The position numbers and the translations under genes are program-made. From Prochlorococcus marinus subsp. marinus str. CCMP1375 (GTDB taxonomy: Bacteria > Cyanobacteriota > Cyanobacteriia > PCC-6307 > Cyanobiaceae), in assembly GCF_000007925.1 (NCBI RefSeq), contig NC_005042.1, forward strand, positions 558,001 through 622,000: a stretch of DNA of 64,000 bases, in the 5' to 3' direction. The notes below the pieces were generated by a model. The model was not told where the DNA came from. It did no database searches and saw nothing but the letters and a program-made list of their open reading frames with translations. Within the stretch, counting starts at the first letter, position 1. Each line of letters starts with the position of its first letter. Below are positions 478 to 44,428 of the stretch, piece after piece.

Positions 478-675
478 TCACTTTAAGCTGCTATTGCTTT
501 CAGACTTGCTTGAAGAGCTTTCTGGCTCAAATGAACGGAGATATCTCTTGCATTGCCGGCTTGCTTCTATTGCAATCTCAAAATTGTAAACAAAGCTTGG
601 ATATTTGCTTTTCCAATTTAACTCTGCTTCTTTCTCTGAAAGGATTTCCTCTTTGATTTCAATGGTGATATTCAA
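478..675 (-). CDS. Hypothetical protein, 65 aa, TTG start
   Basis: The frame is open from a TTG at 675, with a stop just upstream and no ATG near its beginning. The product starts NITIEIKEEI and has mixed charge, one Cys, and a Ser/Glu-rich tail (ESSSSKSES). The composition is protein-like, but the start codon is weak and no family is recognised. It could be a decayed gene. Confidence 0.35.
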   Translation of the reverse strand: MNITIEIKEEILSEKEAELNWKSKYPSFVYNFEIAIEASRQCKRYLRSFEPESSSSKSESNSSLK

Positions 676-879
676 CCATTTTCAAGATGTTTTACAATGT
701 ATCTATGCATACATATTAGAAGTTTAAAAATATATGGTTGATTATTATAGATTAATCAATCTAAAATATTAGAAAGAAATAAATGATAAAAAATAGTTTA
801 CTGAGATAAAGTGCACTTATAATTCGTCTGTCATAGGTTTATATATGATCTCTTGTTAATTAAGGCTTACTATAATAAA

Positions 880-1701
880 TTAACCAAACTTACCAGAAAT
901 ATAATCCTGTGTTGCTTTCTCTTTTGGAGAGTTGAATATTTTCTTTGTTTTGTCAAACTCTACTAAGTACCCTACTTTACCATCATCTGTTCCCCCTTTC
1001 TCTGCTGCATTAAAGAAAGCTGTTTTATCACTAACTCTCAAGGCTTGTTGCATATTATGAGTCACAATTACAATAGTAAAATTCTTTTTAAGTTCATGAA
1101 TTGTTTCTTCGATTTTAATTGTAGAAATAGGATCAAGAGCAGAACAAGGTTCATCCATTAAAATTACATCAGGTTTTATAGCAATTGTTCTTGCAATACA
1201 TAACCTTTGTTGTTGACCACCTGATAATGAATAACCACTTTCATTCAATTTGTCTTTACATTCATCCCATACAGCTGCTTTTCTTAAAGAATCCTCTACT
1301 AATTCATCAAGGTTTCCACTGAAACCATTGATTCTTGCTCCAAAAGCAATATTTTCATAAATACTTTTAGGGAAAGGATTAGGCTGCTGGAAAACCATTC
1401 CTATTTTCCTCCTTACTTCGACTGGGTCAATTTGGTCGGAGTACAAATCTAATCCTTCAAATAAAATAAGCCCTTTTAGTGTGCAGCTACTAATTAAATC
1501 GTTCATACGATTTAATGATCGAAGTACTGTTGATTTACCACACCCGGAAGGACCTATTAGAGAAGTCACTTTATATTTAGGAATGTCAAAATATACATTT
1601 CGAACAGCATCAGAATCGCCATAGCTTATAGTTACATTTTGAAGAGATATAGACGTCTCATTTGAATTCTTGATATCTTCCATTTGGTATGAATCTGTCA
1701 T
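880..1701 (-). CDS. pstB: Phosphate ABC transporter ATP-binding protein PstB
   Basis: PstB is the cytoplasmic ATPase that drives high-affinity phosphate import through the PstCA channel, with PstS as the periplasmic binding protein. The 273-residue length is normal for the family. The Walker A motif GPSGCGKST is at residues 50-58, the ABC signature LSGGQQQRL at 159-167, the Walker B segment ending DEPCSALD at 183-190, and the switch His is in VTHN near 215. The specific [14 protein letters not shown] stretch is typical of PstB. It is the last gene of a pstC-pstA-pstB set, 20 bases after pstA. No pstS lies beside it. Confidence 0.97.
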
Positions 1702-1721
1702 TTGCCTACAATAATTATAAT

Positions 1722-2636
1722 TTATTTATTTGAATCACCTGATGCTATATCGCTAACAAGTTTAGATAATATATTCATGGAAAGTAGTAACACAACTAGT
1801 ATGAAGGATGCTGCCCAGGCTAGTTCATTTTGTGCTTCGTATGGTTCGAGTGCAAAGTTATAAATCAATACAGATAATGAACCCATTTCATAGAACAAAT
1901 CACCAAAGCCTGTTAAGTAATAACGAGAGAAGAGTGCAGTGAAAATTAGAGGAGCTGTCTCCCCAGCCGCTCTTGCTAGGCCTAATACAATTCCCGTTGC
2001 AATTGATCTAAATGCTGCAGGAAGAGTTATCCGAATAACTGTTGTAAACATAGAAGCGCCTATCCCTAAAGATCCTCTCCTAAGGTCATCTGAGACAAGT
2101 TTCAAGCTTTCATCTGTGGTTTTGATTACTGTTGGAAGCATTAAAATTGATAGGGCCATACCTCCAGCAATGCCGCTAAACATGCTCCCAAATAGTACTT
2201 TAGTGGCAACTATTACAGCATAAATAAAAACACCGGCAATTATGGAAGGGACTCCCGCAAGTACATTAGTTCCAAACCTTATAAATCTGGAAAAGGGACC
2301 TCCTTTAGCATATTCAGCAAGGTAAATTCCTCCTCCTACTCCAATTGGTATTGATATTATTGATGCAATGCTAGATATAATAAATGTACCAATAATTGCA
2401 GGCCCTATTCCACCTGCTGACAACAAATCGTCGCCAGGAGGCTCAGGCTCTAATATTAATGTCTCCCAACTAATTTGAGAACCACCTTTAATGAGAATAT
2501 ATGCAAGAACAAGTACAAGAGGTAAGATTGCAATAATTGAAAAAATAGCAGATATTGATGTAAATAACTTCTCAGTTAAATTTCTTTTAGATTTTGGATC
2601 GTATATAAGATTAGCTTTAAGTTTTGAAATTGTCAT
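1722..2636 (-). CDS. pstA: Phosphate ABC transporter permease PstA
   Basis: PstA is one of the two inner-membrane permease subunits of the phosphate importer. The 304-residue protein has an N-terminal helix (residues about 28-50), then the usual block of five further helices. The conserved permease-ATPase coupling loop is around [24 protein letters not shown], with the typical [12 protein letters not shown] stretch following. It lies between pstC (14 bases away) and pstB on the minus strand, so the three are probably co-transcribed. Confidence 0.96.
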
Positions 2637-2649
2637 TGCTCTATTTAGA

Positions 2650-3600
2650 TTAATACTTAAGACTCAATCGTTTCACTACCCACTGAGCAAATATATTGAC
2701 TACTAAAGTTAATAACATAAGAATAAATGCAGCATACATTAATGAAGAAACTTGACTGCCATCTGCTTCACCAAACTGATTAGCAAGCATCGCAGAAATT
2801 GTATATCCAGGTGAAAGGATTGACCAGCTAAAAGTATTAGTGTTTCCAATAATCATTGTCACAGCCATTGTCTCCCCCATTGCTCTGCCAAGCCCAAGTA
2901 AAACACCACCTGTAATACCAGATATTGCAGCGGGAAGAATCACATTGAACATTGCAGTCCATCTTGTGGCTCCAATCCCATAGGCAGCTTCTCTTAATTT
3001 CGCAGGAACTTGTTTTAGTGAGTCTCTTGAAATTGAAGTGATAATAGGGAGAATCATTACAACAAGAATTAATATTGCTGGTGCTATTCCAGGCCCTATT
3101 GGCTGAGTGCTTAGAAAAGGTATCCATCCAAACATTTTGTAGAGAAGATTGAGGAAAGGTCTTATAAAAGGTTCCATCACAAATATGGCCCAAAGGCCTA
3201 GCACTACCGAAGGTATGGCTGCTAACAGCTCTACCATTAATCCTATGAGACCCCTAATTTTTTTTGGGATTATATCTTCTGTGATGAAAATGGCTGTACC
3301 AACCCCTAAGGGGACTGCAATTATCAAAGAAGCAAATGATGTAACTAATGTTCCATAGATAGCGGTAAATGCTCCATATTCGTCAGTTACAGGATTCCAA
3401 TTTGAAGTAGTTAGAAACTTCATTCCATAACTATCTATAGAATCTAGTGACTGATAAAAAATAACAACAAAAATTGCGAAAACTATAATTGCAACTATAG
3501 ATGCCATTGAAAGGAAAAATAATTTAAACCCTTCATCTATAAATTTTTCTGAGACTGTTCTTTGCTTTAGCAAGAACTTGTCTTTGTCATCATCCGCCAC
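2650..3600 (-). CDS. pstC: Phosphate ABC transporter permease PstC
   Basis: PstC is the partner permease of PstA in phosphate uptake. The 316-residue protein has an N-terminal cytoplasmic segment, a first helix at about residues 28-50, and the family coupling motif LREAAYGIGATRWTAMFNVI. That motif is followed by GLGRAMGETMAV, which is diagnostic for PstC. It is the first gene of the operon. A candidate Pho box lies 48-77 bases upstream of its start, consistent with induction under phosphate limitation. Confidence 0.96.
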   Translation of the reverse strand: MADDDKDKFLLKQRTVSEKFIDEGFKLFFLSMASIVAIIVFAIFVVIFYQSLDSIDSYGMKFLTTSNWNPVTDEYGAFTAIYGTLVTSFASLIIAVPLGVGTAIFITEDIIPKKIRGLIGLMVELLAAIPSVVLGLWAIFVMEPFIRPFLNLLYKMFGWIPFLSTQPIGPGIAPAILILVVMILPIITSISRDSLKQVPAKLREAAYGIGATRWTAMFNVILPAAISGITGGVLLGLGRAMGETMAVTMIIGNTNTFSWSILSPGYTISAMLANQFGEADGSQVSSLMYAAFILMLLTLVVNIFAQWVVKRLSLKY

Positions 3601-4383: not shown

Positions 4384-4457
4384 CGGGGCGTGGCGCAGTT
4401 TGGTAGCGCGGGTGCTTTGGGAGCACTAGGTCGCAGGTTCGAATCCTGTCGCCCCGA
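4384..4457 (+). tRNA. trnP: tRNA-Pro(UGG)
   Basis: This is a complete 74-nt cloverleaf. The acceptor stem CGGGGCG (4384-4390) pairs with CGCCCCG (4450-4456), with discriminator A at 4457. The anticodon loop is CTTTGGGAG with anticodon TGG, and the T arm is GCAGGTTCGAATCCTGT. CCA is not encoded. Its 3' half is the sequence repeated, in part, at about 30.4, 39.2, 40.6, 41.6 and 43.4 kb, which makes this gene the integration target of the neighbouring island. Confidence 0.97.
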
Positions 4458-4536
4458 CTAGGATCTCAGCTATTGAGAAAATGGCAATCCCAAAGAAATC
4501 CCCCCAAACAAAGTTTTAAAGGGGTTAAATTTGCTT

Positions 4537-4629
4537 ATGGATACCCTTTTCCCAATGTTGTTGCTAGTTGGTTCAACCATTTACTTGGTTTGGATGTTCC
4601 AAAAGTTTTTCAAGAAGAAAGATTCATAG
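4537..4629 (+). CDS. Tiny single-helix membrane protein, 30 aa
   Basis: ATG 4537 to TAG 4627-4629 encodes a 30-residue protein. One hydrophobic helix (LFPMLLLVGSTIYLVWMF) is followed by a basic C-terminus (QKFFKKKDS). The second half, SxIYLxWMFQKFFK, is nearly the same as in the 36-aa protein at 40827-40937, so the two are paralogues. That conservation argues that both are translated. The function is unknown. An approximately 40-bp dispersed repeat follows the stop codon. Confidence 0.6.
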   Translation: MDTLFPMLLLVGSTIYLVWMFQKFFKKKDS

Positions 4630-4635
4630 CTTTTA

Positions 4636-4675
4636 AAACTGCCTGAAGAGTTGAACTAGATCAGCTAGAAAGGGA
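4636..4675 (+). repeat. Dispersed ~40-bp repeat, copy 1
   Basis: This stretch ends in the core TAGATCAGCTAG, preceded by AACTGCCTGAAGAGTTGAAC. A similar stretch with the same core occurs at about 5281-5318, and a more diverged one at about 40756-40785. Each copy sits beside a tiny gene. The function is unknown. Confidence 0.5.
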
Positions 4676-4692
4676 ATAAGTGAGAATTTTTT

Positions 4693-5157
4693 ATGTCTAG
4701 GAGGTTTGTTAATGACTTTAATGAAGCAATCAAAGGAACTGCTCCTGGCTCAACTGGAATTGCGATACTGAATGTTCTAACTGCCGTTGGTTGTGTAGTT
4801 GCTGCCCCTTTTACTTTTGGAACAAGTCTTTTTGGACTATTAGCCATCCCTGTCTACACATCTCTGAGTTCAATAGCGAATGAAACTTACAGGACAAGAC
4901 GTCTTCTACAAATGGATTTAGAAATCAAGGCAGACAAAGAAGGTCTGTTCGAAATAAGACCAACTAGACCTGTTAGACGAAAGCTTTCAGGTGAAGCTTA
5001 TGAGCAAGAATCTTTTGAAGATGATGACTGGGATACTGAACCAGAAGAAGAAATATTTCATGATATAGAAAATCAGGTTTCTAATGAAATTGATTCTGCA
5101 GATCAAATTTTGACAGAAGACAAAGAGAAGAAGGAAGGTAAACCTGAAGGCGATTGA
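4693..5157 (+). CDS. Membrane protein with acidic C-terminal tail, hypothetical
   Basis: This is a 154-residue protein. Residues about 14-58 contain two hydrophobic stretches (TGIAILNVLTAVGCVVAAPF and a second around SLFGLLAIPVYTSL), so it is probably anchored by a helical hairpin. The remaining 90 residues are polar and strongly acidic (FEDDDWDTEPEEEIF) and end in a Lys/Glu-rich tail. I recognise no family. Its stop codon overlaps a 19-base match (5155-5173) to the start of the exported-protein gene at 29990, suggesting it once preceded such a gene. Confidence 0.6.
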   Translation: MSRRFVNDFNEAIKGTAPGSTGIAILNVLTAVGCVVAAPFTFGTSLFGLLAIPVYTSLSSIANETYRTRRLLQMDLEIKADKEGLFEIRPTRPVRRKLSGEAYEQESFEDDDWDTEPEEEIFHDIENQVSNEIDSADQILTEDKEKKEGKPEGD

Positions 5158-5189
5158 AACGCTTACTACTACCTCAACAAAATTAAATC

Positions 5190-5282
5190 ATGCCTATCAA
5201 CAAACCTATTCCTGATTCTGTTATTAGCTTTTGGAAAAAGTTCTTTAAAGACCTTAAGGCGAGATTTAAAAAATCAAGTTAA
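5190..5282 (+). CDS. Tiny basic protein, 30 aa
   Basis: ATG 5190 to TAA 5280-5282 encodes 30 residues. A short polar start (MPINKPIPDSVI) is followed by an aromatic/basic amphipathic end (SFWKKFFKDLKARFKKSS). The WKKFFK stretch recalls the QKFFKKK end of the protein at 4537. It is directly followed by copy 2 of the dispersed repeat, as that gene is by copy 1. The translation status is uncertain. Confidence 0.4.
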   Translation: MPINKPIPDSVISFWKKFFKDLKARFKKSS

Positions 5283-5864: not shown

Positions 5865-6242
5865 TTAAGGCTCCAATTCTCCATCAGCTATATCCGCCTT
5901 GGCGTACCGGTGGCGGAAAGTATACGGCACTAAAACCTCGCTAACTGCTTCTGCATCGGCTTTAAGTTGTTGCCATTTCTTATTCCTTTTAAGATAGGTT
6001 CCTAAGGCCCTACCAGCACAACCTTCTGCTCCTAATGGTGGTAAGGCTTCTTTCTTGGTTAATCTCTCTTTCAGATTCCAGTTGTAGTGCTTTGCTTCTT
6101 TTAATTCACCAAAGAGTGGAAATAAAAACCTTGTGCCTGTGCGCTCTCCTTTCGTGCCTCCCTGACTCTCTTTTTTATTGTTTTCATTCTCAGATGAGAA
6201 AGGGGCGCTAGGTGGGGCGCTAAAAAGTATGTACTTGTACTA
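5865..6242 (-). pseudogene. Tyrosine recombinase remnant (middle/C-terminal part)
   Basis: Read on the minus strand the frame contains GGTKGERTGTRFLFPLF, then NWNLKERL and LPPLGAEGCAG, and ends with VLVPYTFRHRYAK before a stop at 5865-5867. These are recognisable pieces of the catalytic domain of marine cyanobacterial tyrosine integrases: the segment after box I, and the box II Arg region. There is no start codon, the N-terminal and box I parts are absent, and the final His/Trp and catalytic Tyr are missing. It is a dead fragment. A doubled GGGGCGCTA motif (about 6204-6224) lies at its broken 5' end. Confidence 0.75.
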
Positions 6243-7464: not shown

Positions 7465-8025
7465 ATGAAACAATCTAATGCTTACCCCAATAAGAAGCTT
7501 GTTGATAAAGCTGATGTAATAGCTCGCACTGTTGTGAGTCAACAATCTTTTTATCGATCTAAAGATTGTAATGAGAACCATCGCCAACTTCTAGAAACGA
7601 TGATAGGCGCTGCTATTTGGTACTTGCCTCATGGTAAGGAGTTTTGGACCGGTGGTATCTCAGTTGAAGCATTAAAAAAACTTAGTGAAACTAAAAAAAT
7701 CACTTCTCTTACTAAAGATCATAAATACCCTCGAAAAGTTGCAGCCGCTGAACTTTTTAAAGTCGACTGGTCAGAGATTCCAAATCATTGTGATGAAATC
7801 GTAAACCGCTATCAAAGAAAATATGGTCTCTTTAACTATGTCACACCTACTGAGAATAAGAGGCTTGTTAAATATCAAAAAGGGCATGTTTTTATCAGTC
7901 CAGAAGATTCTTATAGACAGGCTGGAATTTTACTTCAAAAAATATCTGTTGATCAATTAAATTTGATAAGGAAGGGTGATCTTCAACTTACTGAGTTGGC
8001 GATAACAAATCAGATCAATGTTTGA
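7465..8025 (+). CDS. Hypothetical protein co-transcribed with helicase-nuclease
   Basis: This is a 186-residue soluble protein. A central block reads ENHRQLLETMIGAAIWYLPHGKEFWTGGIS, followed by Lys-rich sequence and, near the C-terminus, FISPEDSYRQAGILLQKIS. It has no membrane segment and no motif that I can name. Its last 8 bases overlap the start of the 1189-aa helicase-nuclease gene, which is strong evidence for coupled translation. It is probably a partner of that enzyme, but this is inferred only from the overlap. Confidence 0.65.
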   Translation: MKQSNAYPNKKLVDKADVIARTVVSQQSFYRSKDCNENHRQLLETMIGAAIWYLPHGKEFWTGGISVEALKKLSETKKITSLTKDHKYPRKVAAAELFKVDWSEIPNHCDEIVNRYQRKYGLFNYVTPTENKRLVKYQKGHVFISPEDSYRQAGILLQKISVDQLNLIRKGDLQLTELAITNQINV

Positions 8026-11000
8026 AGTAATGAAACGTCAAATCACACCCACTCAACTTGCATTATTTAGTAGAAGTCCAGTTATTGGTGCTTGGTGGGA
8101 AGAGTTAAATAAAATTGATCCAGAGAGTGCACCAAAACCACAGCCTGACTCATTGGATAAATTATTGATTGACTTTGGTCATGAACACGAAAAAATATTG
8201 ATTAACGATTTAATAGCACAAGGATACAGAGTGAATGTGAAGTGGGTTAAAGGAAAGATGACATCACTCAATTTCCAAGAGACACTAGATGCCATGCACA
8301 ACGGAGATGATTATATATATCAAGCTTGTTTGCAAAATGATGAACTTCGAGGCTCGGTTGATCTCCTTCAGCGAATTGATAAGTCTTCGAAACTAGGGCC
8401 ATGGAGTTATATACCAATTGAATGCAAACTCTCTAGTCATCCTAAGCCTATTTATTTAGTCCAAGGATGCGCATATTGCGAGTTGCTTGAGCCTATCCTT
8501 GGGACACGACCTCAACATTTTAAGCTTTATTTAGGGGGAAAGAAATTTGAGAAAGGAGCAGATGGATTTTTAGTTAATGACTATTGGATGTGGTATAGAC
8601 GTCTTCGTGATCGATATCGGAAGTTTCTAGACACTTTCGATTCTAATAAACAACCAGAACATGCTCCTGGTGATCATGGTCATTGGTCTTCTTTTATTGA
8701 AGAAGAATTAGTGAAGAAACGAGATTTGATCCTTGTTGCTGGTATGAGACAAAGTCAGAGGGAAAAGTTGATTAAAGCAGGTATATCCACTATTGAGCAA
8801 CTTGCTAATAAAGTTGCTAATAAATCAAATACGACAACCATACCTGATTTAGATGAGAATATGTTTATTAGATTAAAGGAACAAGCTGAGATTCAGACAT
8901 CTCCAATGGGAGAAGGAGGGAGACCACCTTATAAAGTTCGCCCCTTAGATGAGCAGACGAAAGGTTTAGAAATGTTGCCTGAGGGTGATACTGGAGATAT
9001 TTGGTTTGATATGGAGGGATACCCAAACCCCCTTACAGGGAAGAAACTTGAATATCTTTTTGGTGCTTGTTATAAAAATAACGAAGACAAGGTCGAGTTT
9101 TTTCCTTTATGGGCCCATGATGAGATACAAGAAGAGAAAGCTTTTAATGATTTTATTGAATGGGTAAAAAATCGCCGTATAGCTTACCCCAAGCTTCATG
9201 TTTACCATTATGCAAATTATGAAAAAGCAGCTTTAGGGAATCTTGCTTTAAAGTATAAGGATCATCAACCTTTGTGGGAAGAATGGTTAAGAGAAGAACT
9301 ATTTGTCGATCTCTATCCTATCGTTCGAAATGGGATACTTCTTGGGGCTCCAAGTTATTCGATTAAAAAGGTTGAAAAGCTCTATTTAGGTGATCGTAAC
9401 GAAGAAATTAGTACTGCTGTTGATTCTGTTGTGCAATATGCAGAATGGTTAAAGTCCGGAGAAGCAAAATTAACGGGTGATTCAATTTCGTCAAGTGAGC
9501 GACTTCAAAACCTTCAAGATTACAACGAAAAGGATTGTGAGTCTACTAAGCAACTTCAAGATTTTCTCATTGATAGGCAGAGGGAGATGCTCATTTCTCC
9601 TCGTCTTAATAAGTTCAGTAATTTAGAGGAGGAGGTTTTAAATAAAAAGCTTAGAGATTTAGAACTAATAGCAAAGAAAATGAGAAAAGAAGTTTCAGAT
9701 CCAAATAATGATCAACACCTAAAAGGATCAGATGGGTTGAGTTTTAAACATCAAAAGCTTGTCTCATATTTGATTGAGTTTCATGAAACAGAGGGGAAGG
9801 TTGAATGGTGGGAGTTCTTTAACCGGAGAGATCAAACGACTTCTGATGAGCGATATTACGATACAGAAATAATTGCTAATGCTAGAAAAATAGGCAAAAA
9901 AACAATTAAAAAAAGTGAAGGATATATTTATGAATTTAAAGCTGAACAGCCTTTAAAGCTTTCGAATAAACCTGGTCTGAATATGTCCTTTTCTTTAGCT
10001 GAATTTAGAAAGAAAAAAGAGAGACTTATTTCTAAAGATAAATTAGGTACAAATAATAATGAAGATAAAAAGAAAATATTTTCTCTTGTAGGCAACTTTT
10101 GTGAAAATGATCCAACAAAAATTGTTCTCAAAGTTGGAGCCAAGAAGAAAGAATATTTAGATGAAATGGGTTTTAAAGAACTTCCCTCGCATTGTGATTT
10201 GATTCTTTTTCCTAGGCAGATTTATCAATATATGCTTCCTGATTTAGTTAGACAAGCCAAAGCCTGGGTCGAGGTAAAGAAACCATTTTCAAAGGCAATG
10301 GTTCATTTATTAGAAAAAAGGAAAATACCTGAACTTATAAAGCTCAATCAGCAAATTTGTAATACACCAGATAAGGTAGCTACCTTATTAACTGACTTTT
10401 TATCAACAGCAAAGGGGATTGCACTTTCACTGCAAGGTCCTCCTGGAACTGGAAAAACTACTGTTACAGGAGAACTCATTGCTAGATTGGTGAAAGAAGG
10501 TAAACGAATAGCTGTTAGTTCCCAGACTCATGAGGCGATTAATAATCTACTTAAGTGTGTAGATGAAAAGGCAGAGTCATTAGCAGTAAATCCTTTTATT
10601 GTTAAAATAAGTAGTGGTACGAGTAAGAAAAGTGATAAGCGATCTCTTAAGGGGACAAAAATACAGTCAATTAGTCAGAAAGCTTTCAACTCCGAACATA
10701 CTGTGCTTGGTGCCACAGTTTTTAGCTTAGTGAAGGAATGTTTTAGTGAGGAACCTTTTGATCTTTTAGTTGTTGATGAGGCTGGGCAGGTCTCTTTAAG
10801 TAATCTTTTGTTTATGAGTCAGTGTGCTCGCAATATTTTGCTTGTTGGCGATCAAAATCAATTGTCTCAACCAAATCGTGCGGCACATCCAGAAAATAGT
10901 GATTTAAGTTGCTTGGATTATATGATGGGGGATGAAAAAATAGTGCCTACTGACCGAGGTGTGTTTTTGGCTACCAGTTGGAGAATGCCTCCATCATTAA

Positions 11001-11587
11001 CTTCAGTTGTTTCTGAGCTTTTTTATCAAGGTGAACTGCAGTCATGTATATCTAAATCAGAGAACAAGATCCTTTGGGAAGGATTACAACAAGGCTTGTC
11101 TTTTGAACCAGTGGAGCATTCTTCTAATTCAAGTGAAAGCAAGGAAGAAATTGATCGAATTGAGCAATTGGTGAATCAATTGCTTGGTTGCTCATATCAA
11201 TTGGTTCAACAAAATAGCGAAGGGACATCATTACTTCAAGGCATTATTGGCCGTGATGAGATACTGATTACGGCTCCTTATAACCTTCAAGTAAATCGAC
11301 TTGAGAGGCGTTTATCTAGTAAAGCTCGAATAGGAACTGTTGACCGTTTTCAAGGCCAACAAGCTCCTATATCGATTCATTCCCTTACTGCAAGTGATGC
11401 TGAAAATGCTCCTAGAGGAATTGGATTTGTTTTGGACCCAGATCGTTTAAATGTTGCAATTAGCCGAGCTCAATGTTTATCTATTGTCGTTGGCTCTCCT
11501 TCTCTGGCCACAGGGATTGCGGGTACTGTTGAAGGCGTTATGCAGTTAAACCGACTTTGCCGAATCATGGACACAGCGACCAAATAA
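8018..11587 (+). CDS. RecB-like (TM0106-type) nuclease fused to superfamily 1 helicase
   Basis: This 1189-residue protein has two parts. The N-terminal half starts with TPTQLALFSRSPVIGAWWEE and has the layout of TM0106-type RecB-family nucleases, including a DIWFDMEGYPNP segment near residue 330. The C-terminal third is a UPF1/Dna2-type helicase: Walker A GPPGTGKTT at about 807, a DEAG box at about 920, a GDQNQLSQP motif III, then SWRMPP, TVDRFQGQQ and a final RLNVAISRAQ. Related fusions are widespread and are thought to process DNA, often in defence contexts. It closes a three-gene operon (7292-11587). Alternative start at 8030. The family assignment is solid; the biological role is inferred. 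Confidence 0.85.
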   Translation: MFEVMKRQITPTQLALFSRSPVIGAWWEELNKIDPESAPKPQPDSLDKLLIDFGHEHEKILINDLIAQGYRVNVKWVKGKMTSLNFQETLDAMHNGDDYIYQACLQNDELRGSVDLLQRIDKSSKLGPWSYIPIECKLSSHPKPIYLVQGCAYCELLEPILGTRPQHFKLYLGGKKFEKGADGFLVNDYWMWYRRLRDRYRKFLDTFDSNKQPEHAPGDHGHWSSFIEEELVKKRDLILVAGMRQSQREKLIKAGISTIEQLANKVANKSNTTTIPDLDENMFIRLKEQAEIQTSPMGEGGRPPYKVRPLDEQTKGLEMLPEGDTGDIWFDMEGYPNPLTGKKLEYLFGACYKNNEDKVEFFPLWAHDEIQEEKAFNDFIEWVKNRRIAYPKLHVYHYANYEKAALGNLALKYKDHQPLWEEWLREELFVDLYPIVRNGILLGAPSYSIKKVEKLYLGDRNEEISTAVDSVVQYAEWLKSGEAKLTGDSISSSERLQNLQDYNEKDCESTKQLQDFLIDRQREMLISPRLNKFSNLEEEVLNKKLRDLELIAKKMRKEVSDPNNDQHLKGSDGLSFKHQKLVSYLIEFHETEGKVEWWEFFNRRDQTTSDERYYDTEIIANARKIGKKTIKKSEGYIYEFKAEQPLKLSNKPGLNMSFSLAEFRKKKERLISKDKLGTNNNEDKKKIFSLVGNFCENDPTKIVLKVGAKKKEYLDEMGFKELPSHCDLILFPRQIYQYMLPDLVRQAKAWVEVKKPFSKAMVHLLEKRKIPELIKLNQQICNTPDKVATLLTDFLSTAKGIALSLQGPPGTGKTTVTGELIARLVKEGKRIAVSSQTHEAINNLLKCVDEKAESLAVNPFIVKISSGTSKKSDKRSLKGTKIQSISQKAFNSEHTVLGATVFSLVKECFSEEPFDLLVVDEAGQVSLSNLLFMSQCARNILLVGDQNQLSQPNRAAHPENSDLSCLDYMMGDEKIVPTDRGVFLATSWRMPPSLTSVVSELFYQGELQSCISKSENKILWEGLQQGLSFEPVEHSSNSSESKEEIDRIEQLVNQLLGCSYQLVQQNSEGTSLLQGIIGRDEILITAPYNLQVNRLERRLSSKARIGTVDRFQGQQAPISIHSLTASDAENAPRGIGFVLDPDRLNVAISRAQCLSIVVGSPSLATGIAGTVEGVMQLNRLCRIMDTATK

Positions 11588-13661: not shown

Positions 13662-13880
13662 TTAGTTATTTTTAGAGATGCATCTCCCCACCGCAATAAT
13701 GGTTAAAGAGGAATTATTCACCACCTTTTCCCTCTGTCCGAGTGGAGGAAGTTTTTCACCTATCGAGAATTTTTTCTGTAAGTTCCAATCAATTGGATTA
13801 GCGTCTAAATCTTTAACGAAAAGAGTATGCAACTTTCTTAGCACTGTGCTTTTACCCTGTTTACCACTCTTAGAGTTTTA
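13662..13880 (-). pseudogene. Tyrosine recombinase remnant (between box I and box II)
   Basis: On the minus strand the frame reads SKSGKQGKSTVLRKLH, then DWNLQKKFSIGEKLPPLGQ. It aligns by eye with NWNLKERL...LPPLG in the remnant at 5865-6242. That is the linker region of marine cyanobacterial integrases, without box I, box II or the Tyr. It lies directly downstream of the retron reverse transcriptase gene, marking an old element boundary. Confidence 0.55.
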
Positions 13881-19772: not shown

Positions 19773-19990
19773 AGGCTGTTCTACTGCCCTATCTATGATC
19801 GGTGTCGATCACTGTAGGCGTCTAGCGGCTTAGGCCGGCCTAAACTTTGAAGGACTCGTAGAGTCGTTTCAGAGAAAGGTTTAGGCCGGCCTAAGCAGCT
19901 AGATGCTGAGAGACATCGTCAGCCGATGATGGTTTTGTAGCTTAACTACTGCCTTGGCGAAACGCCAAGGTTTAATTGCTAGAACAGCCT
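19773..19990 (-). ncRNA. Candidate retron ncRNA (msr-msd)
   Basis: Transcribed on the minus strand, immediately before the operon. The ends form a perfect 11-bp inverted pair: a1 at 19980-19990 and a2 at 19773-19783 (AGGCTGTTCTA/TAGAACAGCCT). Directly after a1 comes AGC, whose G (complement of 19979) is the expected branching guanosine. An 8-bp msr hairpin (CCTTGGCG, loop of 3) spans 19952-19970, and a second small hairpin lies at 19914-19928. The msd part is a 25-bp stem with one mismatch, 19821-19845 with 19879-19903. Each arm of that stem contains the 14-base palindrome TTAGGCCGGCCTAA, and a small GACTC/GAGTC hairpin lies in the loop. The architecture fits a retron RNA very well. Confidence 0.85.
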
Positions 19991-20130: not shown

Positions 20131-21900
20131 TCAGTTACCCCAATTGCGTAAAATGTATTTCCAGGCTCTCTGCTTGGAATCACCATCATCATTAAGTTGT
20201 GCCAGGATAGCTAATGATGCATTTTTGTTTGATCCAGCAGCTTTTCTAAGTAATGGTTTAGTTGAATTACTAAATATTACTAAAACCTCTTCAGAAACCT
20301 TTTCTCTCTTTAGCCTTTCAAGCTTTTGATTTTCATCAAGCTTTTGCCAATCGCTTGGTAATTGACGTTGTAAGATTGCTTCCGTTATTTCAGATTCACC
20401 CTCTTTCGCAAGTTGTTTAAGAACATCCTCAGGGGTATTTTCATTGGAAGCAACTGCTGCTCTTATTTGTGTATAATTCCAGCTTTTGAATTGTGCAAGT
20501 ATTGTTAAAACCTCTTCAGAGACATTTTGATTATTGATTTTTTCCAATTTTTCATCTTCATCAAGTTGTCGCCAATCGACTGGTAATTGACGATTTAGAA
20601 CAGCTTCTTGCACATCAGAAGCATCATCTTTCGCAAGTTGTTTAAGAACATCCTCAGGGGTATTTTCATTGGAAGCAACTGCTGCTCTTATTTGTGTATA
20701 ATTCCAGCTTTTGAATTGTGCAAGTATTGTTAAAACCTCTTCAGAGACATTTTGATTATTGATTTTTTCCAATTTTTCATCTTCATCAAGTTGTCGCCAA
20801 TCGACTGGTAATTGACGATTTAGAACAGCTTCTTGCACATCAGAATCATCATCTTTCGCAAGTTGCTGAATAACTTCTTCAGGTGTGTTTTCATGAAGTG
20901 CAATTGCTTTACGAATCTCCCAATTACTACTTTGTGCAAGTATTTCTAGAATATTCGTCGGAACATTGTCTTCTTTAAGCTTGTCGAGCTTTTCATCATC
21001 ATCTAGCTCTCTCCATTCTTTTGGTAATTCTCTATAGGCAACTGCGTTTAGAGCAGCTTCTTGCACATCAGAATCATCATCTTTCGCAAGTTGTTTAAGA
21101 ACATCCTCAGGAGTATTTTCATTGGAAGCAACTGCTGCTCTTATTCGCCAATTACTGCTTTTAGCAAATGCTTTTAAAATATCAGGACCAACATTTTCTT
21201 CTTGTAATTTTTCGATTTTTTCAGCTTCATCAAGTTGTCGCCAATCGACTGGTAATTGACGATTTAGAACAGCTTCTTGCACATCAGAATCATCATCATC
21301 ACGAAGTTGTTCTATAACATCAGATGGCGTTTGTGGGTTTAATGCTATTGCTTGGCGAACTTCCCAATTCTCAGAGTCAACAAAACGACTAAATATCTCT
21401 TTTGGAAGATCTGTCTCTTTTAATTTTTCTATTGCTTCATCGTCCTCTAATGAGTCCCAATCATCTGTGGCAGCATTTATTTTTTCAACTTCCTTCTCTG
21501 GCGTAACGTTTTCACCTTTCTCCTCTGAAGAAAGGTTGACACCTTTAGCTTCTAATAGAGCTTCGTAAAACGCTGTGAAATTAAGTCTTTCTCCCCCATC
21601 TTTTTTTGTAGATACATAACCACAAGCTTTGACTAAATCACTTTTGCTTACATCCCCAAGCTCTTTGATTTTTTCTAAAAGTGTAGTCCCTTTTAAGGGC
21701 TCGATTGATTCAACTTCCTCAGAACTTTCAATTGTTTCTGGATGTTGTTCTAGTTGAGGTCCTTTAGGCATCAATAGCACCCATCCAATAGGCATTAGGG
21801 CTATTATCAATACCCAAGGACTTGCTACAATGCCAATCACCAGTAATGTCAGTGTTAGTAAGCAAGCATTGCGATATTCAGACCAGAGTCGCTTCAGCAT
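20131..21900 (-). CDS. Membrane-anchored LRV-repeat protein with cyAbrB-like domain (paralogue A)
   Basis: This 589-residue protein starts with a hydrophobic hairpin (residues about 10-45, including LTLTLLVIGIVASPWVLIIA). Next is a domain at about 70-118 (SKSDLVKACGYVS, then LNFTAFYEALLEAKG) that resembles the N-terminal part of cyanobacterial AbrB-like proteins. From about 175 to the end there are acidic leucine-rich-variant repeats of the kind IRAAVASNENTPEDVLKQLA, each joined by LPxxWRxLDExEK linkers. Two 75-residue units (20403-20852) are nearly identical at DNA level. It is a close paralogue of the 1110-aa gene at 22239. The role is unknown; a scaffold at the membrane is a guess. Confidence 0.7.
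   Translation of the reverse strand: MLKRLWSEYRNACLLTLTLLVIGIVASPWVLIIALMPIGWVLLMPKGPQLEQHPETIESSEEVESIEPLKGTTLLEKIKELGDVSKSDLVKACGYVSTKKDGGERLNFTAFYEALLEAKGVNLSSEEKGENVTPEKEVEKINAATDDWDSLEDDEAIEKLKETDLPKEIFSRFVDSENWEVRQAIALNPQTPSDVIEQLRDDDDSDVQEAVLNRQLPVDWRQLDEAEKIEKLQEENVGPDILKAFAKSSNWRIRAAVASNENTPEDVLKQLAKDDDSDVQEAALNAVAYRELPKEWRELDDDEKLDKLKEDNVPTNILEILAQSSNWEIRKAIALHENTPEEVIQQLAKDDDSDVQEAVLNRQLPVDWRQLDEDEKLEKINNQNVSEEVLTILAQFKSWNYTQIRAAVASNENTPEDVLKQLAKDDASDVQEAVLNRQLPVDWRQLDEDEKLEKINNQNVSEEVLTILAQFKSWNYTQIRAAVASNENTPEDVLKQLAKEGESEITEAILQRQLPSDWQKLDENQKLERLKREKVSEEVLVIFSNSTKPLLRKAAGSNKNASLAILAQLNDDGDSKQRAWKYILRNWGN
20403..20852 (-). repeat. Two-copy 225-bp tandem repeat inside LRV gene
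   Basis: Copy 1 is 20403-20627 and copy 2 is 20628-20852. They are identical by eye apart from one difference (gaagcatca versus gaatcatca). Each encodes 75 residues, so the reading frame is kept. The near-identity implies a recent duplication. Confidence 0.85.
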
Positions 21901-25200: not shown

Positions 25201-25571
25201 GTTATTTCAACACCTTTAGCTTCTAATAGAGCTTCGTAAAACGCTGTGAAATTAAGTCTTTCTCCCCCATCTTTTTTTGTAGATACATAACCACAAGCTT
25301 TGACTAAATCACTTTTGCTTACATCCCCAAGCTCTTTGATTTTTTCTAAAAGTGTAGTCCCTTTTAAGGGCTCGATTGATTCAACTTCCTCAGAACTTTC
25401 AATTGTTTCTGGATGTTGTTCTAGTTGAGGTCCTTTAGGCATCAATAGTACCCATCCAATAGGCATTAGGGCTATTATCAATACCCAAGGACTTGCTACA
25501 ATGCCAATCACCAGTAATGTCAGTGTTAGTAAGCAAGCATTGCGATATTCAGACCAGAGTCGCTTCAGCAT
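22239..25571 (-). CDS. Large membrane-anchored LRV-repeat protein (paralogue B)
   Basis: This is an 1110-residue protein. The first about 118 residues (hydrophobic hairpin plus cyAbrB-like domain) match paralogue A almost exactly. Residues about 130-320 are a specific insert absent from A (rich in Asp/Glu/Tyr). From about 315 to 915 there are acidic LRV repeats (e.g. IRQAVAQSPSTTENILKILI), interrupted by less regular units. The last about 190 residues form a unique acidic domain without known motif. With paralogue A it forms a tandem pair downstream of the retron. A modular binding protein with exchangeable ends is a reasonable reading; the function is unknown. Confidence 0.7.
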   Translation of the reverse strand: MLKRLWSEYRNACLLTLTLLVIGIVASPWVLIIALMPIGWVLLMPKGPQLEQHPETIESSEEVESIEPLKGTTLLEKIKELGDVSKSDLVKACGYVSTKKDGGERLNFTAFYEALLEAKGVEITTSSSDSEEQREDSHQTNLSKSIEEALIRIISENIKEYGISDLQEIYDDSTQRSYDFSRLEGSYESTLYEWIHIYLKNTGLYNSFLNAKQLAQAEAVPEGTIYGPNDEEDENYEGIQEQIDELHWDCILVVAKEGIRQGLNIYGIPEYLENCGMDEYLEEINSIKVDKSNNGVADEVNSENSWEALDEDELIERLKGTEVPIDIIRKFVNSENWEIRRTIALREDLPLEIIEKLRNDDDDDVKDAVAYRQLPVEWRKLDDDEKIEKLKDDENVDDNIIEILSTSNNWGIRQAVAQSPSTTENILKILIHDDDDDVKKATKKALKAKEISYEYSINKDDNDKSIDDDEVGCIKKSQLPAELRSMSLSNIAKRINERGASKELLEVLSSTDNHELKCAIAENTSTSEEVLIKLIKESEVNWRENSCSDSVDDLARENLYRRKIPIEFRAMEEQAIIEALKQEDAEEEMLKTCAEYGPVYIRSAVAGNPKTPQETLGMLANDVNSGWVKEVVALNPNCSKETINRLLHDDDTHGILVRRAALLNGLPNDWIKLIQDEDIGEIRKRMINEHPSLKVINTLLKRDEEEFTSSYDNKQFSACVVYYPDTPDDILNHLRQDDDEYIKAAFRETTMPSDWVVMSDEERISALKSSDVPLEVFNTLALSPNYQIRLAIARSDKTSQPILDILANDSDSEVKEAIRQRELPEEWRELEQEELIKRFEEGLANEIILEFFSKSSDWHVRQAVAQNTSTPEKILTTLREDEDDDVKEAANKSLRILNPNSDAFGKERKSIYMKTEPGGRIAFSQLDQNQVNLLIQSISKMNLDEALDELRYSGVDAEGVVNSGDEGEYGNEGRIFFNEYLQRIGPDEDKETEKFKDGIYAVLMSLSKCSIEFEFELDEEFDNDKLEETCVPIRLPSEIKHGLYGHPDFNIITGFKYDGEEIEEDYEIIDRGYDDQFTIFSIKEGKTTVIYSNYNGDEEWNNSAEILNLM

Positions 25572-26373: not shown

Positions 26374-26411
26374 TTATTTTCTTATAATTAACTACCTTGA
26401 TTTCTTAGAAA

Positions 26412-26621
26412 ATGAAAATAGAGGATCTGTCTTATAAGCAAAAAGATGAATTGGCAGCAACTTATGCTGGTATAGCAGCGCAAGAAAGATTACAGTCTTC
26501 TCTTGATGGAGGTTCTATGGCTACGGCAATGGGTCATTCTTACGAAACCCATTGCAGAGAGTATCCTTGGGCTACAAAGAGTGGAACTGACTCTGCATTT
26601 GCAAGGGTAAAGGCTGCCTAA
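26412..26621 (+). CDS. Hypothetical protein, 69 aa
   Basis: This small soluble protein has a helical first half (MKIEDLSYKQKDELAATYAG) and a second half with HSYETHCREYPW. No family is recognised. The clean start, its length and a neighbouring gene on the same strand support it as real. Confidence 0.5.
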   Translation: MKIEDLSYKQKDELAATYAGIAAQERLQSSLDGGSMATAMGHSYETHCREYPWATKSGTDSAFARVKAA

Positions 26622-30313: not shown

Positions 30314-30601
30314 TAAAGTTTTAATCTTAATGATATTTATACACAAAACGAAGTTTTGCGTGAGTTTTGCGTGAAGCAATTATTTGCGTGAATTATGTAT
30401 TAGCTGAGACTTACTGCTATAACTGATCTGGGCGACAGGATTCGAACCTGCGACGTAGAGTAAAAATTGAAAACGGAAAAAAAGGGAGGCCAACTTTTTT
30501 ATATGGTCCTTTGTAAATATGCAGGGGGTGAATTTTATTTTTCCTACATACACCCCCCATATTTTTAAGCAAACCTTTTCAAGTAATTATTCAAATAAAT
30601 C
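30314..30601. other. Gap with tRNA-Pro remnant and short repeats
   Basis: The gap holds short repeated GTTTTGCGTGA units (30351-30375) and the tRNA fragment listed separately. No gene is seen. Confidence 0.4.
30428..30455 (-). repeat. tRNA-Pro 3'-end fragment (att-like)
   Basis: On the minus strand GTCGCAGGTTCGAATCCTGT followed by CGCCCAG matches the T arm and acceptor strand of tRNA-Pro(UGG), with one change in the acceptor. It is in inverted orientation to the gene at 4384 and too short to be a tRNA. It lies at the edge between the exported-protein operon and the methyltransferase cassette. Confidence 0.7.
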
Positions 30602-38642: not shown

Positions 38643-39002
38643 CTAATTCTTTCGATTTCTTTGGTTATAAGAACTATCAGCAGCAAGACCGCAAAGATGA
38701 ATCAAAGCTCGTGCATTACTAGCAACAGATCCTGTGCGTCCCAAAACAAGACTTTTCTGAATAGCGCTTTGCAAGTTTGCCACTAATTGGGCTGTGATTT
38801 GTGGCCTGCTTAAATCCACTTCTTCTAGGTCTTGAACAAGCAACTCATAGGCTGCAGCTGTGATTCTTCGAGCTTGTCTGCGACTCAAGCGATAAGTTTC
38901 GGCCACATGGGCCGTAACAACTGTGGCGCCATTACCTTCAGCGAGCATGGAAGCAGCCTCTCCAACGCGAAGTTCTAATTCAGCTTTTGTTGCTCTAGCC
39001 AT
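38643..39002 (-). CDS. Terminase-small-subunit-like helix-turn-helix protein
   Basis: The start chosen at MARATKAEL (39002; MSM at 39008 is possible) gives about 119 residues. AELELRVGEAASMLAEG, then HVAETYRLSRRQARRITAAA, is a helix-turn-helix of the kind found in phage terminase small subunits. The base composition is visibly richer in G and C than its neighbours, suggesting transfer. It sits beside a tRNA-Pro fragment and a broken integrase. Alternatively it is a conserved cyanobacterial regulator of similar fold. Confidence 0.55.
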   Translation of the reverse strand: MARATKAELELRVGEAASMLAEGNGATVVTAHVAETYRLSRRQARRITAAAYELLVQDLEEVDLSRPQITAQLVANLQSAIQKSLVLGRTGSVASNARALIHLCGLAADSSYNQRNRKN

Positions 39003-39157
39003 ACTCATAAAATCGTCCAAGACCTAGTGCTCCAGGCACTTCTGCTATAGCAAGGGATTCAAGCAGTTGTTAGCGCTTTGTTGGCTCAAAAGGGCAAACA
39101 AAAAATTGGCTTAGCTAGACTATAGCCAAACCTATTGCAAATAAAGAGTTTTACCAG

Positions 39158-39202
39158 TCGGGGCGACAGGATTCGAACCTGCGACCTAGTGCTCCCAAAG
39201 CA
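39158..39202 (-). repeat. tRNA-Pro 3' half, 45-nt exact copy (att-like)
   Basis: Bases 39158-39202 are the exact reverse complement of the last 45 bases of tRNA-Pro(UGG), from the anticodon loop to the discriminator. The match stops abruptly after the anticodon stem, so it is no functional tRNA. It is the best-preserved attachment-site copy and is inverted relative to 4384-4457. The broken integrase at 39.4 kb starts just beyond it. Confidence 0.85.
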
Positions 39203-39367
39203 TTGGGTTGTCAAGATGAGACAGGGGCATAAATCTAGTCACTCACTGAGAACTATCTAGTTATCAGAATGGGTTTGAGACTCACTATTGTGTGATAATC
39301 CTGCTTGGTTTTAAATATATTCAACCAGGAGCTACCCCTAGAGCTACCCCTCAAAGTCCACTCCCCA

Positions 39368-39670
39368 ATGAAAGCTAGAAGTACATCTGAAGAGTGGGTA
39401 AGAAGCGTTAGGAGTTACTTAAGCAATCAGCTCAACTCGAATTGGCAGATAACTCAAAACAAAGGCAAAGTGATGCTTGGCATCAGATGGGCAGATGGGG
39501 ATAGGACCTACAAATATCTTCCTTTCAGGTGGGAAAGAACTAACCATGGAAAGATCCAGAGTTTTATTGAAGAAGTCCATGACCTCGTCATCAATAAAAA
39601 GGTTGGACTAAATGAAGCATTAGAGCGAGTAAAAAAGACCCAATCTGAATCGCTTAAAGCAGCAAAAAGT
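39368..39670 (+). pseudogene. Tyrosine recombinase N-terminal remnant
   Basis: From ATG 39368 the plus frame reads MKARSTSEEWVRSVRSYLSN, then NKGKVMLGIRWADGDRTYKY and SFIEEVHDLVI. This is the DNA-arm and core-binding layout of marine cyanobacterial integrases. The frame runs on to 39727, but from about 39665 it reads antisense to another integrase piece. It therefore lacks the catalytic domain. Two GAGCTACCCCT units lie before the start (39331-39351). Confidence 0.7.
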
Positions 39671-39893
39671 GGAAATAAAAACCGTATAGATGTTCGTTCT
39701 CCTTTTGTGCCTCCCTTACTCTTTTGATAGGTCGTTTTAAGCTTTCCATCTTGGACAACAAGATAACGTAATTCTTCTGGCCGTAGATAAACACTCAAGA
39801 TTTGGATTGCAAATCTCCATTTCTGATAACGCTTAAAGATTTGCTGGATTCTTGGCAAGGCTCTCGCTATTACTAGGTTTTGGATTTTTTCTA
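39665..39893 (-). pseudogene. Tyrosine recombinase box I remnant, inverted
   Basis: On the minus strand the frame gives KWRFAIQILSVYLRPEELRY, then QKSKGGTKGERTSIRFLFPL. LRPEELRYL is the box I region with the first catalytic Arg. The piece abuts the N-terminal remnant tail to tail, so part of one gene has been inverted or two pieces joined. GGTKGERT...RFLFPLF is also in the remnant at 5865-6242, so the two come from related integrases. Confidence 0.7.
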
Positions 39894-40610: not shown

Positions 40611-40650
40611 TTCTTTGGAAGAACTAAGTCGAAGGTTCGACCCCCTTCTC
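40611..40650 (+). repeat. Decayed tRNA-Pro 3'-end copy
   Basis: TTCTTTGGAAGAACTAAGTC followed by GAAGGTTCGA aligns by eye with the tRNA-Pro anticodon-to-T-arm region, with several changes. The orientation is the same as the functional gene. Confidence 0.5.
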
Positions 40651-40937: not shown

Positions 40938-41095
40938 CAGTATTACGATGTTTTCATTAAAAACCGAGGTTTAATTGTTGTCTTAGCTTCTCCCACTTTG
41001 AGGTTTGTTGTGTGGGAACTAATTATGGGAAGTCTGAAAAATTGACCATTTGGGATTCAGCAATAATAGTGGAAATAAAGAATTCATTTTTTTAA

Positions 41096-42112: not shown

Positions 42113-42295
42113 ATGGTTGCATACGCTAGATCGAGAACAAGATCATGGCTTTCAATGCTATGGCCTGTGACGGTTCAACCCATCGAGAATGAGACAGTTG
42201 AGTTATCCAAGTCCAATGAGCTTATTGAGAAACACGAGGAGCAAAGAAAGAGCTTTTTAGAAGCAAGTAAGAATGGAGGGATGTGGTTTTCTTAA
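42113..42295 (+). CDS. Hypothetical protein, 60 aa
   Basis: The product has a basic/aromatic start (MVAYARSRTRSWLSMLWPVT) and then an acidic helix (ENETVELSKSNELIEKHEEQ). No motif is recognised. An isolated short gene; moderate support only from composition. Confidence 0.45.
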   Translation: MVAYARSRTRSWLSMLWPVTVQPIENETVELSKSNELIEKHEEQRKSFLEASKNGGMWFS

Positions 42296-43044: not shown

Positions 43045-43263
43045 TTAATAGTCATTTCGATTCTCGCGTTTTTTCTGTCTTGTTTTGGAGTGGCAGCTTT
43101 CAGGAGACCAACGACTTTTAATTTCCTCTAGGAAATCATAGATAAATTTATCAGGACAATCCAACTCTTCCTGTAATTCATTCAGCTCATCAGTAATAAA
43201 TTCATTTACCCCAGAAATGATCCCTATTTGCTGGTCTTGAGTTGGTTCCCACTTCTCTGGCAT
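43045..43263 (-). CDS. Hypothetical protein, 72 aa
   Basis: This is an acidic first half (MPEKWEPTQDQQIGIISGVN, then ELNELQEELDCPDKFIYDFL) and a basic tail (KTRQKKRENRNDY). It is soluble and helical. It is convergent with the 139-aa gene, 16 bases apart. The role is unknown. Confidence 0.5.
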   Translation of the reverse strand: MPEKWEPTQDQQIGIISGVNEFITDELNELQEELDCPDKFIYDFLEEIKSRWSPESCHSKTRQKKRENRNDY

Positions 43264-43427
43264 AAACCTTTATATTGGAGAGCGCACTTTTATTGTGTGA
43301 AAGGCTTGAGATATGTGCGTTAAATAATCAACTTATTGTGATCTTTTTTGAAGAAGGATGAACTTGGGTTATCTCTAAGGATTCTCTTTATAGCTTACAA
43401 CCCTAGTGAAAGATGTTATTGCACATA

Positions 43428-43472
43428 GTGCTTTGTTAGTCCTAGGCCGAAAGGTCGAATCCTGTCGCCTCG
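43428..43472 (+). repeat. Decayed tRNA-Pro 3' half (att-like), direct orientation
   Basis: GTGCTTTGTTAGTCCTAGGC, AAGGTCGAATCCTGTCGCC and TCG align with the last 45 bases of tRNA-Pro with about seven changes. It is in direct orientation to 4384-4457 and is the most distant good copy, so it may mark the far end of the oldest island. Confidence 0.65.
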
Positions 43473-43602
43473 CATAGGGTTTGATGCGTCTCATAAACAG
43501 ACTATTCATACCTGAGATGAACTTATTACTATTTGCTAGGGTTTATTTCTTTTCTTACGCGCTCTTTTTAAGCTCTTAACTAACTCTTGGCATGATCAAG
43601 GT

Positions 43603-44019: not shown

Positions 44020-44428
44020 AAGACCTTGCTTCTTCCTCTTCTTTCTGAAATCCCTTTACCAGAGAGCTAATGTAAGGCTGAAGCTTATCGACTGTTAGGC
44101 CAATGCTGCAGAGCAATAGTCTAATAGCGAGCAAATAATTCAATCCGAAAACCGAATTATCTGCTCGCTTGGTTACTTGCCTACAAACATGAGAGGTTAA
44201 TGCTATAAGAGCTTTAGTCTTCGAAGAGAGATAAAGTAGATGGGAAGCCTTTGGCAACCTTCTTTGGGGAGCAAAACGATATCCTCATCGTATTGTGACT
44301 TGTTTTGACTGCAATCAGCAAAATGATGACTGAAGGAATAGGGCGTTAGAGCTTATGTTTCTTTTTTGGTGTCATTATTTAAGATTTCCCAAATATTTTC
44401 CAATCTTTTCTCTTAGCCATTGCACGTT
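44020..44428. other. Gap without supported gene
   Basis: A minus-strand frame (43973-44257) exists here but has poor composition and overlaps the preceding gene. I see no hairpin of note. Confidence 0.3.

Follow-up and report, generated by a model that had tools for sequence, protein, structure and literature searches.

Setting of the junction

In Prochlorococcus marinus subsp. marinus str. CCMP1375, two partial integrase genes of opposite orientation meet beside a copy of the 3' end of tRNA-Pro, which raises the question of where the two halves came from and how they came to be joined. The genome is a single contig of 1,751,080 bases, and the stretch of DNA analyzed here (the window; 64,000 nt) covers its positions 558001-622000. 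An intact tRNA-Pro gene lies near the left end of the window, and to its right is a variable island with extra copies of the 3' 47 nt of the tRNA, referred to below as att. Coordinates are those of the window, and the integrase families are treated in the next section.

4384-4458, plus strand: intact tRNA-Pro (TGG); its 3' 47 nt (4413-4459) served as the reference att copy
30425-30471, minus strand: degraded att copy, 34/47, inverted
38643-39020, minus strand: gene F, 125 aa, found directly behind att in genome G065 and behind tRNA-Pro in genome G178
39156-39202, minus strand: exact att copy, 47/47 identical to 4413-4459, inverted relative to 4384-4458
39203-39367, plus strand: 165-bp leader between att and the start of the family-A integrase (IntA), parts of which are conserved in 7 intact relatives
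39368-39676, plus strand: N-terminal piece of a family-A integrase, ~100 of ~420-465 residues, predicted to form a compact alpha-beta3-alpha domain
39664-39676, no strand: tail-to-tail junction (widest interval 39640-39676)
39667-39882, minus strand: middle piece of a family-B integrase with box I, in native polarity, both gene ends lost
43045-43475, both strands: distal end of a family-B element, with a degraded att copy (plus, 43429-43475, 36/47, direct) and a 72-aa ORF (minus, 43045-43263)

The 5' flank of tRNA-Pro was collinear with that in the same-genus genome G065 (551.3-558.05 kb and 562.4 kb in CCMP1375). A flip of tRNA-Pro itself, an idea prompted by the 0.88-3.6 kb block and right flank being elsewhere or differently placed in relatives, was ruled out because the G065 flank upstream of tRNA-Pro is collinear. 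The genes immediately left of tRNA-Pro (600-3600) were found hundreds of kb away in genomes G010 and G065, so a block has moved to its present place between tRNA-Pro and the flank that it had ancestrally. The 3' flank of the att copy at 30425-30471 (30389-30426) was also found behind an att copy in genome G017, and the DNA of the 72-aa ORF lies just upstream of, or overlaps, the family-B integrase gene in three relatives. A further direct att copy at 40611 is doubtful (31/47; best match in 100 shuffles, 27). ARAGORN called a selenocysteine tRNA at 42120-42192, which is probably false.

Two integrase families

The original prediction, made from the letters of the DNA, placed an N-terminal integrase piece on the plus strand and a box I piece on the minus strand, meeting tail to tail near 39665 beside an exact att copy, and each of these points was borne out. 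Searches with the plus-strand piece covered 201 genomes, that of the window among them and the rest from its family; 55 gave a match of any kind. The piece aligned with nine intact integrases of 417-470 aa at 42-45% identity (E 1.8e-25 to 4.3e-22), and "family A" is used as a label for these nine; the six named relatives of the integrase were all Prochlorococcus. The tblastn alignments to family A stop at 39676 or 39685. The homologous part is the N-terminal domain of the intact members, ending at residue ~100; the catalytic part (Arg/His/Tyr) is absent, and the ORF is uninterrupted over 119 codons. In the structure predicted for an intact family-A integrase, a confident domain at residues ~6-94 was followed by low confidence at residues 95-108, with pLDDT falling from ~82 to ~45 after residue 90; the mean pLDDT of the full model was 50.8 and only residues ~6-94 were usable. 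Modelled alone, the N-terminal remnant gave a mean pLDDT of 81. By this confidence profile, the break falls in the interdomain linker and the remnant is a whole N-terminal domain. Considered as a candidate arm-binding domain of integrases, it gave no Foldseek match at E <= 0.001 among solved structures, the best VIA-align hit (Z 4.8) was to an unrelated protein with nothing above noise, and a profile of intact family A matched no solved-structure sequence. Homologs of the N-terminal piece were found neither in phages nor among viral contigs; among the best 20 of 30 phage DNA matches, only the 45-nt tRNA-Pro end was matched.

The minus-strand piece was searched against 300 genomes, of which 103 had some match. 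All 17 family-B integrases compared matched 39882-39667 (best E in the window 1.6e-16; ~55-61% identity to the best relatives), a segment that includes the box I stretch LRPEELRYL. A scan of genome contigs with the family-B piece gave no confirmed match. Family A had no match to the minus-strand piece, so that the halves come from two different integrase families. These are related only as members of one broad superfamily, so the event was not homologous recombination between like genes. The proposal of recombination between two related integrases therefore holds insofar as two integrase genes are joined in opposite orientation, but the kinship implied does not extend beyond the superfamily.

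Further family-B remnants were located in the window:

5880-6173, minus strand: C-terminal remnant in native polarity with the first copy of the junction motif, best E 7.5e-26
13725-13874, minus strand: short remnant in native polarity with one internal TAA, E 9e-14
44287-44406, minus strand: weak C-terminal remnant, E 1.2e-5

The motif AGTGGAAATAAAAA, which had been noted both at the junction and in the remnant at 6.1 kb, is present in exact copies at 39668 and 6115 (0.16 expected with one mismatch allowed); a third copy with one mismatch, at 41068, is inside no integrase piece found. On the minus strand AGTGGAAATAAAAA encodes FLFPL of family B at both exact sites, and the 6.1-kb remnant and the 39.7-kb piece share 81% DNA identity over 72 nt. 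The copy at 6.1 kb is explained by the family-B origin of that remnant too, and as one and the same coding stretch the two copies offer no independent evidence of a hotspot; AGTGGAAATAAAAA was ruled out as a recombination hotspot on these grounds. Its recurrence is ordinary family-B paralogy and no signal of recombination.

Position of the breakpoint

Residue-by-residue comparison with the intact families supported A as far as 39664-39667 and again at a conserved Asn (39674-39676), and supported B, in the opposite reading, down to 39667-39664. Family-A columns past residue 105 were misplaced by the aligner in this comparison and were left out. The alignments of 10 of the 17 family-B integrases continue, gapped, beyond 39667 to 39640 or further, so the outer limit was set at 39640-39676 and the breakpoint is inexact. 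The letters DSDW, which extend some family-B alignments to 39640, were taken as coincidence; they could move the breakpoint by ~27 bp. In several relatives the intact family-A gene has DNA of the form AG.G..AAT..AAA at the junction site, and up to ~13 bp may have been alike in both parents at the join. This fits joining at a short shared sequence and does not prove it.

The segment 39222-39925 had no match in any of 13 other same-genus genomes, and at a sampling of one genome per species the arrangement looks private to CCMP1375. When the whole genome was searched with the intact proteins of families A, B and C, the missing halves of A and B did not turn up; apart from the pieces given here, the only hits were a distant recombinase of 390 aa near 500 kb and, near 1395 kb, a truncated N-terminal integrase of 226 aa. 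With the reciprocal halves absent, there is no reciprocal junction to confirm an inversion, and a clean, reversible two-breakpoint inversion cannot be claimed.

Orientation of att and the integrase front

At seven of the nine intact family-A loci, the start codon is preceded by an antisense tRNA-Pro 3' copy at a distance of 161-166 bp; at one of the others the copy is 560 bp away, and at the last none was found. The att copy of the window is likewise antisense and 165 bp before the family-A start codon, and att, leader and start all fall within the DNA homology to genome G003 (76% over 228 columns). When full-length integrases of families A-D on the fetched contigs were considered together, att was within 700 bp of the start in 28 of 31, antisense in all 28 and sense in 0. 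By both comparisons, att and the family-A front of the window stand in their native, ancestral relation. The suggestion that the junction had inverted the tRNA fragment was thus wrong with respect to its own integrase; relative to the chromosomal tRNA-Pro, it is the larger block of F, att and IntA front that is flipped.

Because gene F adjoins att or tRNA-Pro in G065 and G178 and the relation of att to IntA is native, these three features make up a block in native arrangement. As a unit, the block is turned round relative to the intact tRNA-Pro at 4384. The C-terminal family-B pieces, the family-B middle piece and the att copy at 43429 have native polarity, and the island switches back to this polarity at the A/B junction. 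In genome G135, one tRNA-Pro island holds intact B and A integrases that read the same way, so A on the plus strand and B on the minus strand in the window requires a reversal.

Extra att copies on contigs with tRNA-Pro were direct in 17 cases and inverted in 4, with 2 of the 4 in the window; excluding the window, 16 were direct and 2 inverted. The latter lie in two same-genus genomes, at 2617 of locus L082 (G201) and at 145 of locus L083 (G190). At L077 (G166), L081 (G203) and L082 (G201), an integrase of a fourth family, D, lies 5' of the intact tRNA-Pro and points away from it, in this respect unlike A-C.

Left end of the inverted segment

Comparison with intact relatives and mapping of breakpoints, as the original prediction proposed, resolved the two families and the junction at 39664-39676, but gave the left end as candidates only. 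Among the markers of polarity, the family-B remnants at 5.9 and 13.7 kb (minus) are native, and the family-C tail at 26.5 kb (plus) is inverted, as are the markers at 30.4 and 39.2 kb. The first of the inverted markers is itself composite:

26502-26615, plus strand: C-terminal remnant of a family-C integrase in inverted polarity, behind the 5' part of an unrelated gene (26411-26517)

In the chimeric ORF 26411-26615 (plus) the first 33 codons are nearly identical to a gene start in genome G209 and the rest corresponds to the family-C integrase tail of G065, which makes this place one candidate for the left breakpoint. The candidates are near 26.5 kb and at ~30.3 kb. Partner pieces predicted for the left end are absent at both (family C at 26.5 kb, none at ~30.35 kb). 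The 28.9-30.0 kb block has the same orientation here as in most relatives, which argues against 26.5 kb and would favor a left end near 30.3 kb. The orientation of cargo blocks in general was dropped as a guide to the left breakpoint, since blocks occur in both orientations in relatives, with mixed signs.

Cargo of the island

The minus-strand segment 13900-19755 carries reverse transcriptase, SWIM-domain and HEAT/WGR-like genes that match PADLOC models of retron type XIII, and a strong inverted repeat at 19803-19921, just upstream of these genes, is a candidate for the retron RNA. The segment 30602-36594 (minus), which lies between the inverted att copies, encodes in a row an MmeI-like type IIG restriction-methylase, a DEAD helicase and a T5orf172 protein. 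A 1189-aa AAA helicase with an RNase H-like domain (8018-11587, plus) partially matches models of Mokosh MkoA. A 300-nt direct repeat (21539-21838 and 25210-25509, 100% identical) lies in two leucine-rich-repeat-variant genes and is a recent duplication or gene conversion.

Origin of the junction

The junction is probably a rearrangement scar in a decayed, tycheposon-like tRNA-Pro island, in which an illegitimate inversion (or reverse insertion) joined the front of an A integrase to the middle of a B integrase. The 3' end of tRNA-Pro would have taken up several integrative elements in a tandem array, with an integrase gene at the end of each that read away from its own att copy. A later illegitimate inversion, or insertion in reverse, would have cut the family-A integrase in the interdomain linker and, in the same event, the family-B integrase between box I and box II, so that the A front became attached to an oppositely oriented B middle and, together with F and att, was left inverted with respect to tRNA-Pro. 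Decay of both genes and loss of the reciprocal halves would have followed. We infer both the single inversion and the place of its left end; no close relative with the pre-inversion arrangement was found.

Absence of the reciprocal halves from the genome is also what would be expected had there been no single inversion and had an element carrying F, att and IntA been captured in reverse by end joining or transposition, the B piece being an older, unrelated remnant at the edge of the insertion. Reversed pieces are frequent in such islands: att is inverted in G201 and G190, and integrase remnants are reversed in G178, G151, G085, G185 and G052. No transposase or target duplication was noticed near the junction in a non-systematic look, however, and a simultaneous break in two integrase genes is more simply explained by one joining event, so that reverse capture is considered unlikely.

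A retained function is a much weaker prospect. The open frame of 119 codons, the truncation in the linker, the predicted compact domain and the native leader would suit an IntA front retained as a functional DNA-binding protein that might, for instance, block further elements arriving at tRNA-Pro, and a second genome, AH-324-J21, preserves att and an IntA front of ~127 codons. A stop at codon 21 in the AH-324-J21 copy suggests decay, however, no ortholog of the truncated form was found, and a DNA-binding role is suggested by position only; such retention is very unlikely. Slightly more doubtful still is the specific version in which the inversion preserved the complete N-terminal domain with leader and att, and the 119-codon product acts as a dominant blocker on the integrase binding sites and shields tRNA-Pro. 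Were this true, the IntA front of AH-324-J21 would be a related, now dead, case.

The att copies at 4413-4459 and 39156-39202 are identical, inverted and 34.7 kb apart, as integrase-driven site-specific inversion between them would have it. Such an event would place the breakpoints in att and not in integrase genes and would swap the att flanks, but 4459-5281, the flank joined to tRNA-Pro in the window, also adjoins tRNA-Pro in G065 (91%), F has stayed next to its att, in agreement with G065 and G178, and such an inversion leaves the A/B junction unexplained. With the flanks unswapped this candidate was rejected, and we regard it as highly improbable. That the pieces are not integrase remnants at all, or that the junction is an assembly error, is the least credible reading. 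In its favor, the pieces go unrecognized by Pfam-A, although on four intact relatives Pfam-A also missed the A and C proteins and recognized B and D only weakly. Against it, alignment to intact relatives gave E-values of 1e-25 and 1e-16, the att spacing is native, the letters of box I are present, and the genome is assembled as a single contig.

Relation to known islands

The inversion or reverse insertion favored here would have acted on an island comparable to the tycheposons of Prochlorococcus. These elements, described in PMC10872708, which cites Hackl et al. 2023, share with the window a cargo island at a tRNA 3' end, tyrosine-recombinase genes beside tRNA-fragment copies, and several tandem elements. 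In CCMP1375 an intact tRNA gene has the island at its 3' end, copies of the tRNA 3' part are present, and a tyrosine recombinase stands by att in the form of the family-A front remnant, at 165 bp and in the geometry of intact relatives. Unlike tycheposons, the island has no intact integrase of families A-C that could excise it, only pieces of these being found in the whole genome (family D was searched for in the window); its att copies are not direct at both ends, 39156-39202 and 30425-30471 being inverted and only 43429-43475 (36/47) direct; and one element end is inverted with its integrase fused head-on to another. The tRNA-Met island of strain MIT9313 (PMC2784084, P-SS2), a Prochlorococcus hypervariable island in which pseudo-tRNAs occur in several copies, is similar in its repeated tRNA fragments and degraded mobile genes; it differs in the tRNA used and, as described there, in having degraded transposase genes where the window has opposed integrase halves. 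The junction itself was not found in the titles and abstract openings of literature on Prochlorococcus and SS120 islands, tRNA-Pro, tycheposons and integrases.

The nearest parallel is in the uncultured Prochlorococcus AH-324-J21:

9788-10381 of locus L169: att (44/47), leader and IntA front cut at residue ~127, with a stop at codon 21

This case shares att, leader and a cut IntA front with the window and is independent of it; what directly follows its break is not any of the integrase pieces looked for, and the locus shows no evident inversion. Together with the reversed remnants in other genomes, it indicates that broken and reversed integrases are a recurring outcome in such islands. The junction of CCMP1375 is a new instance of known island decay, not a new kind of system, and is real but largely ordinary.

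By the rule that the integrase is antisense to its att copy (28/28 with att within 700 bp), inverted segments can be read from sequence alone. The locus records the fossilization of tRNA-linked islands in streamlined marine cyanobacteria, in which elements stack at one tRNA and inversions cut their integrases, with cargo, including restriction and retron-type genes, trapped in the decayed island.
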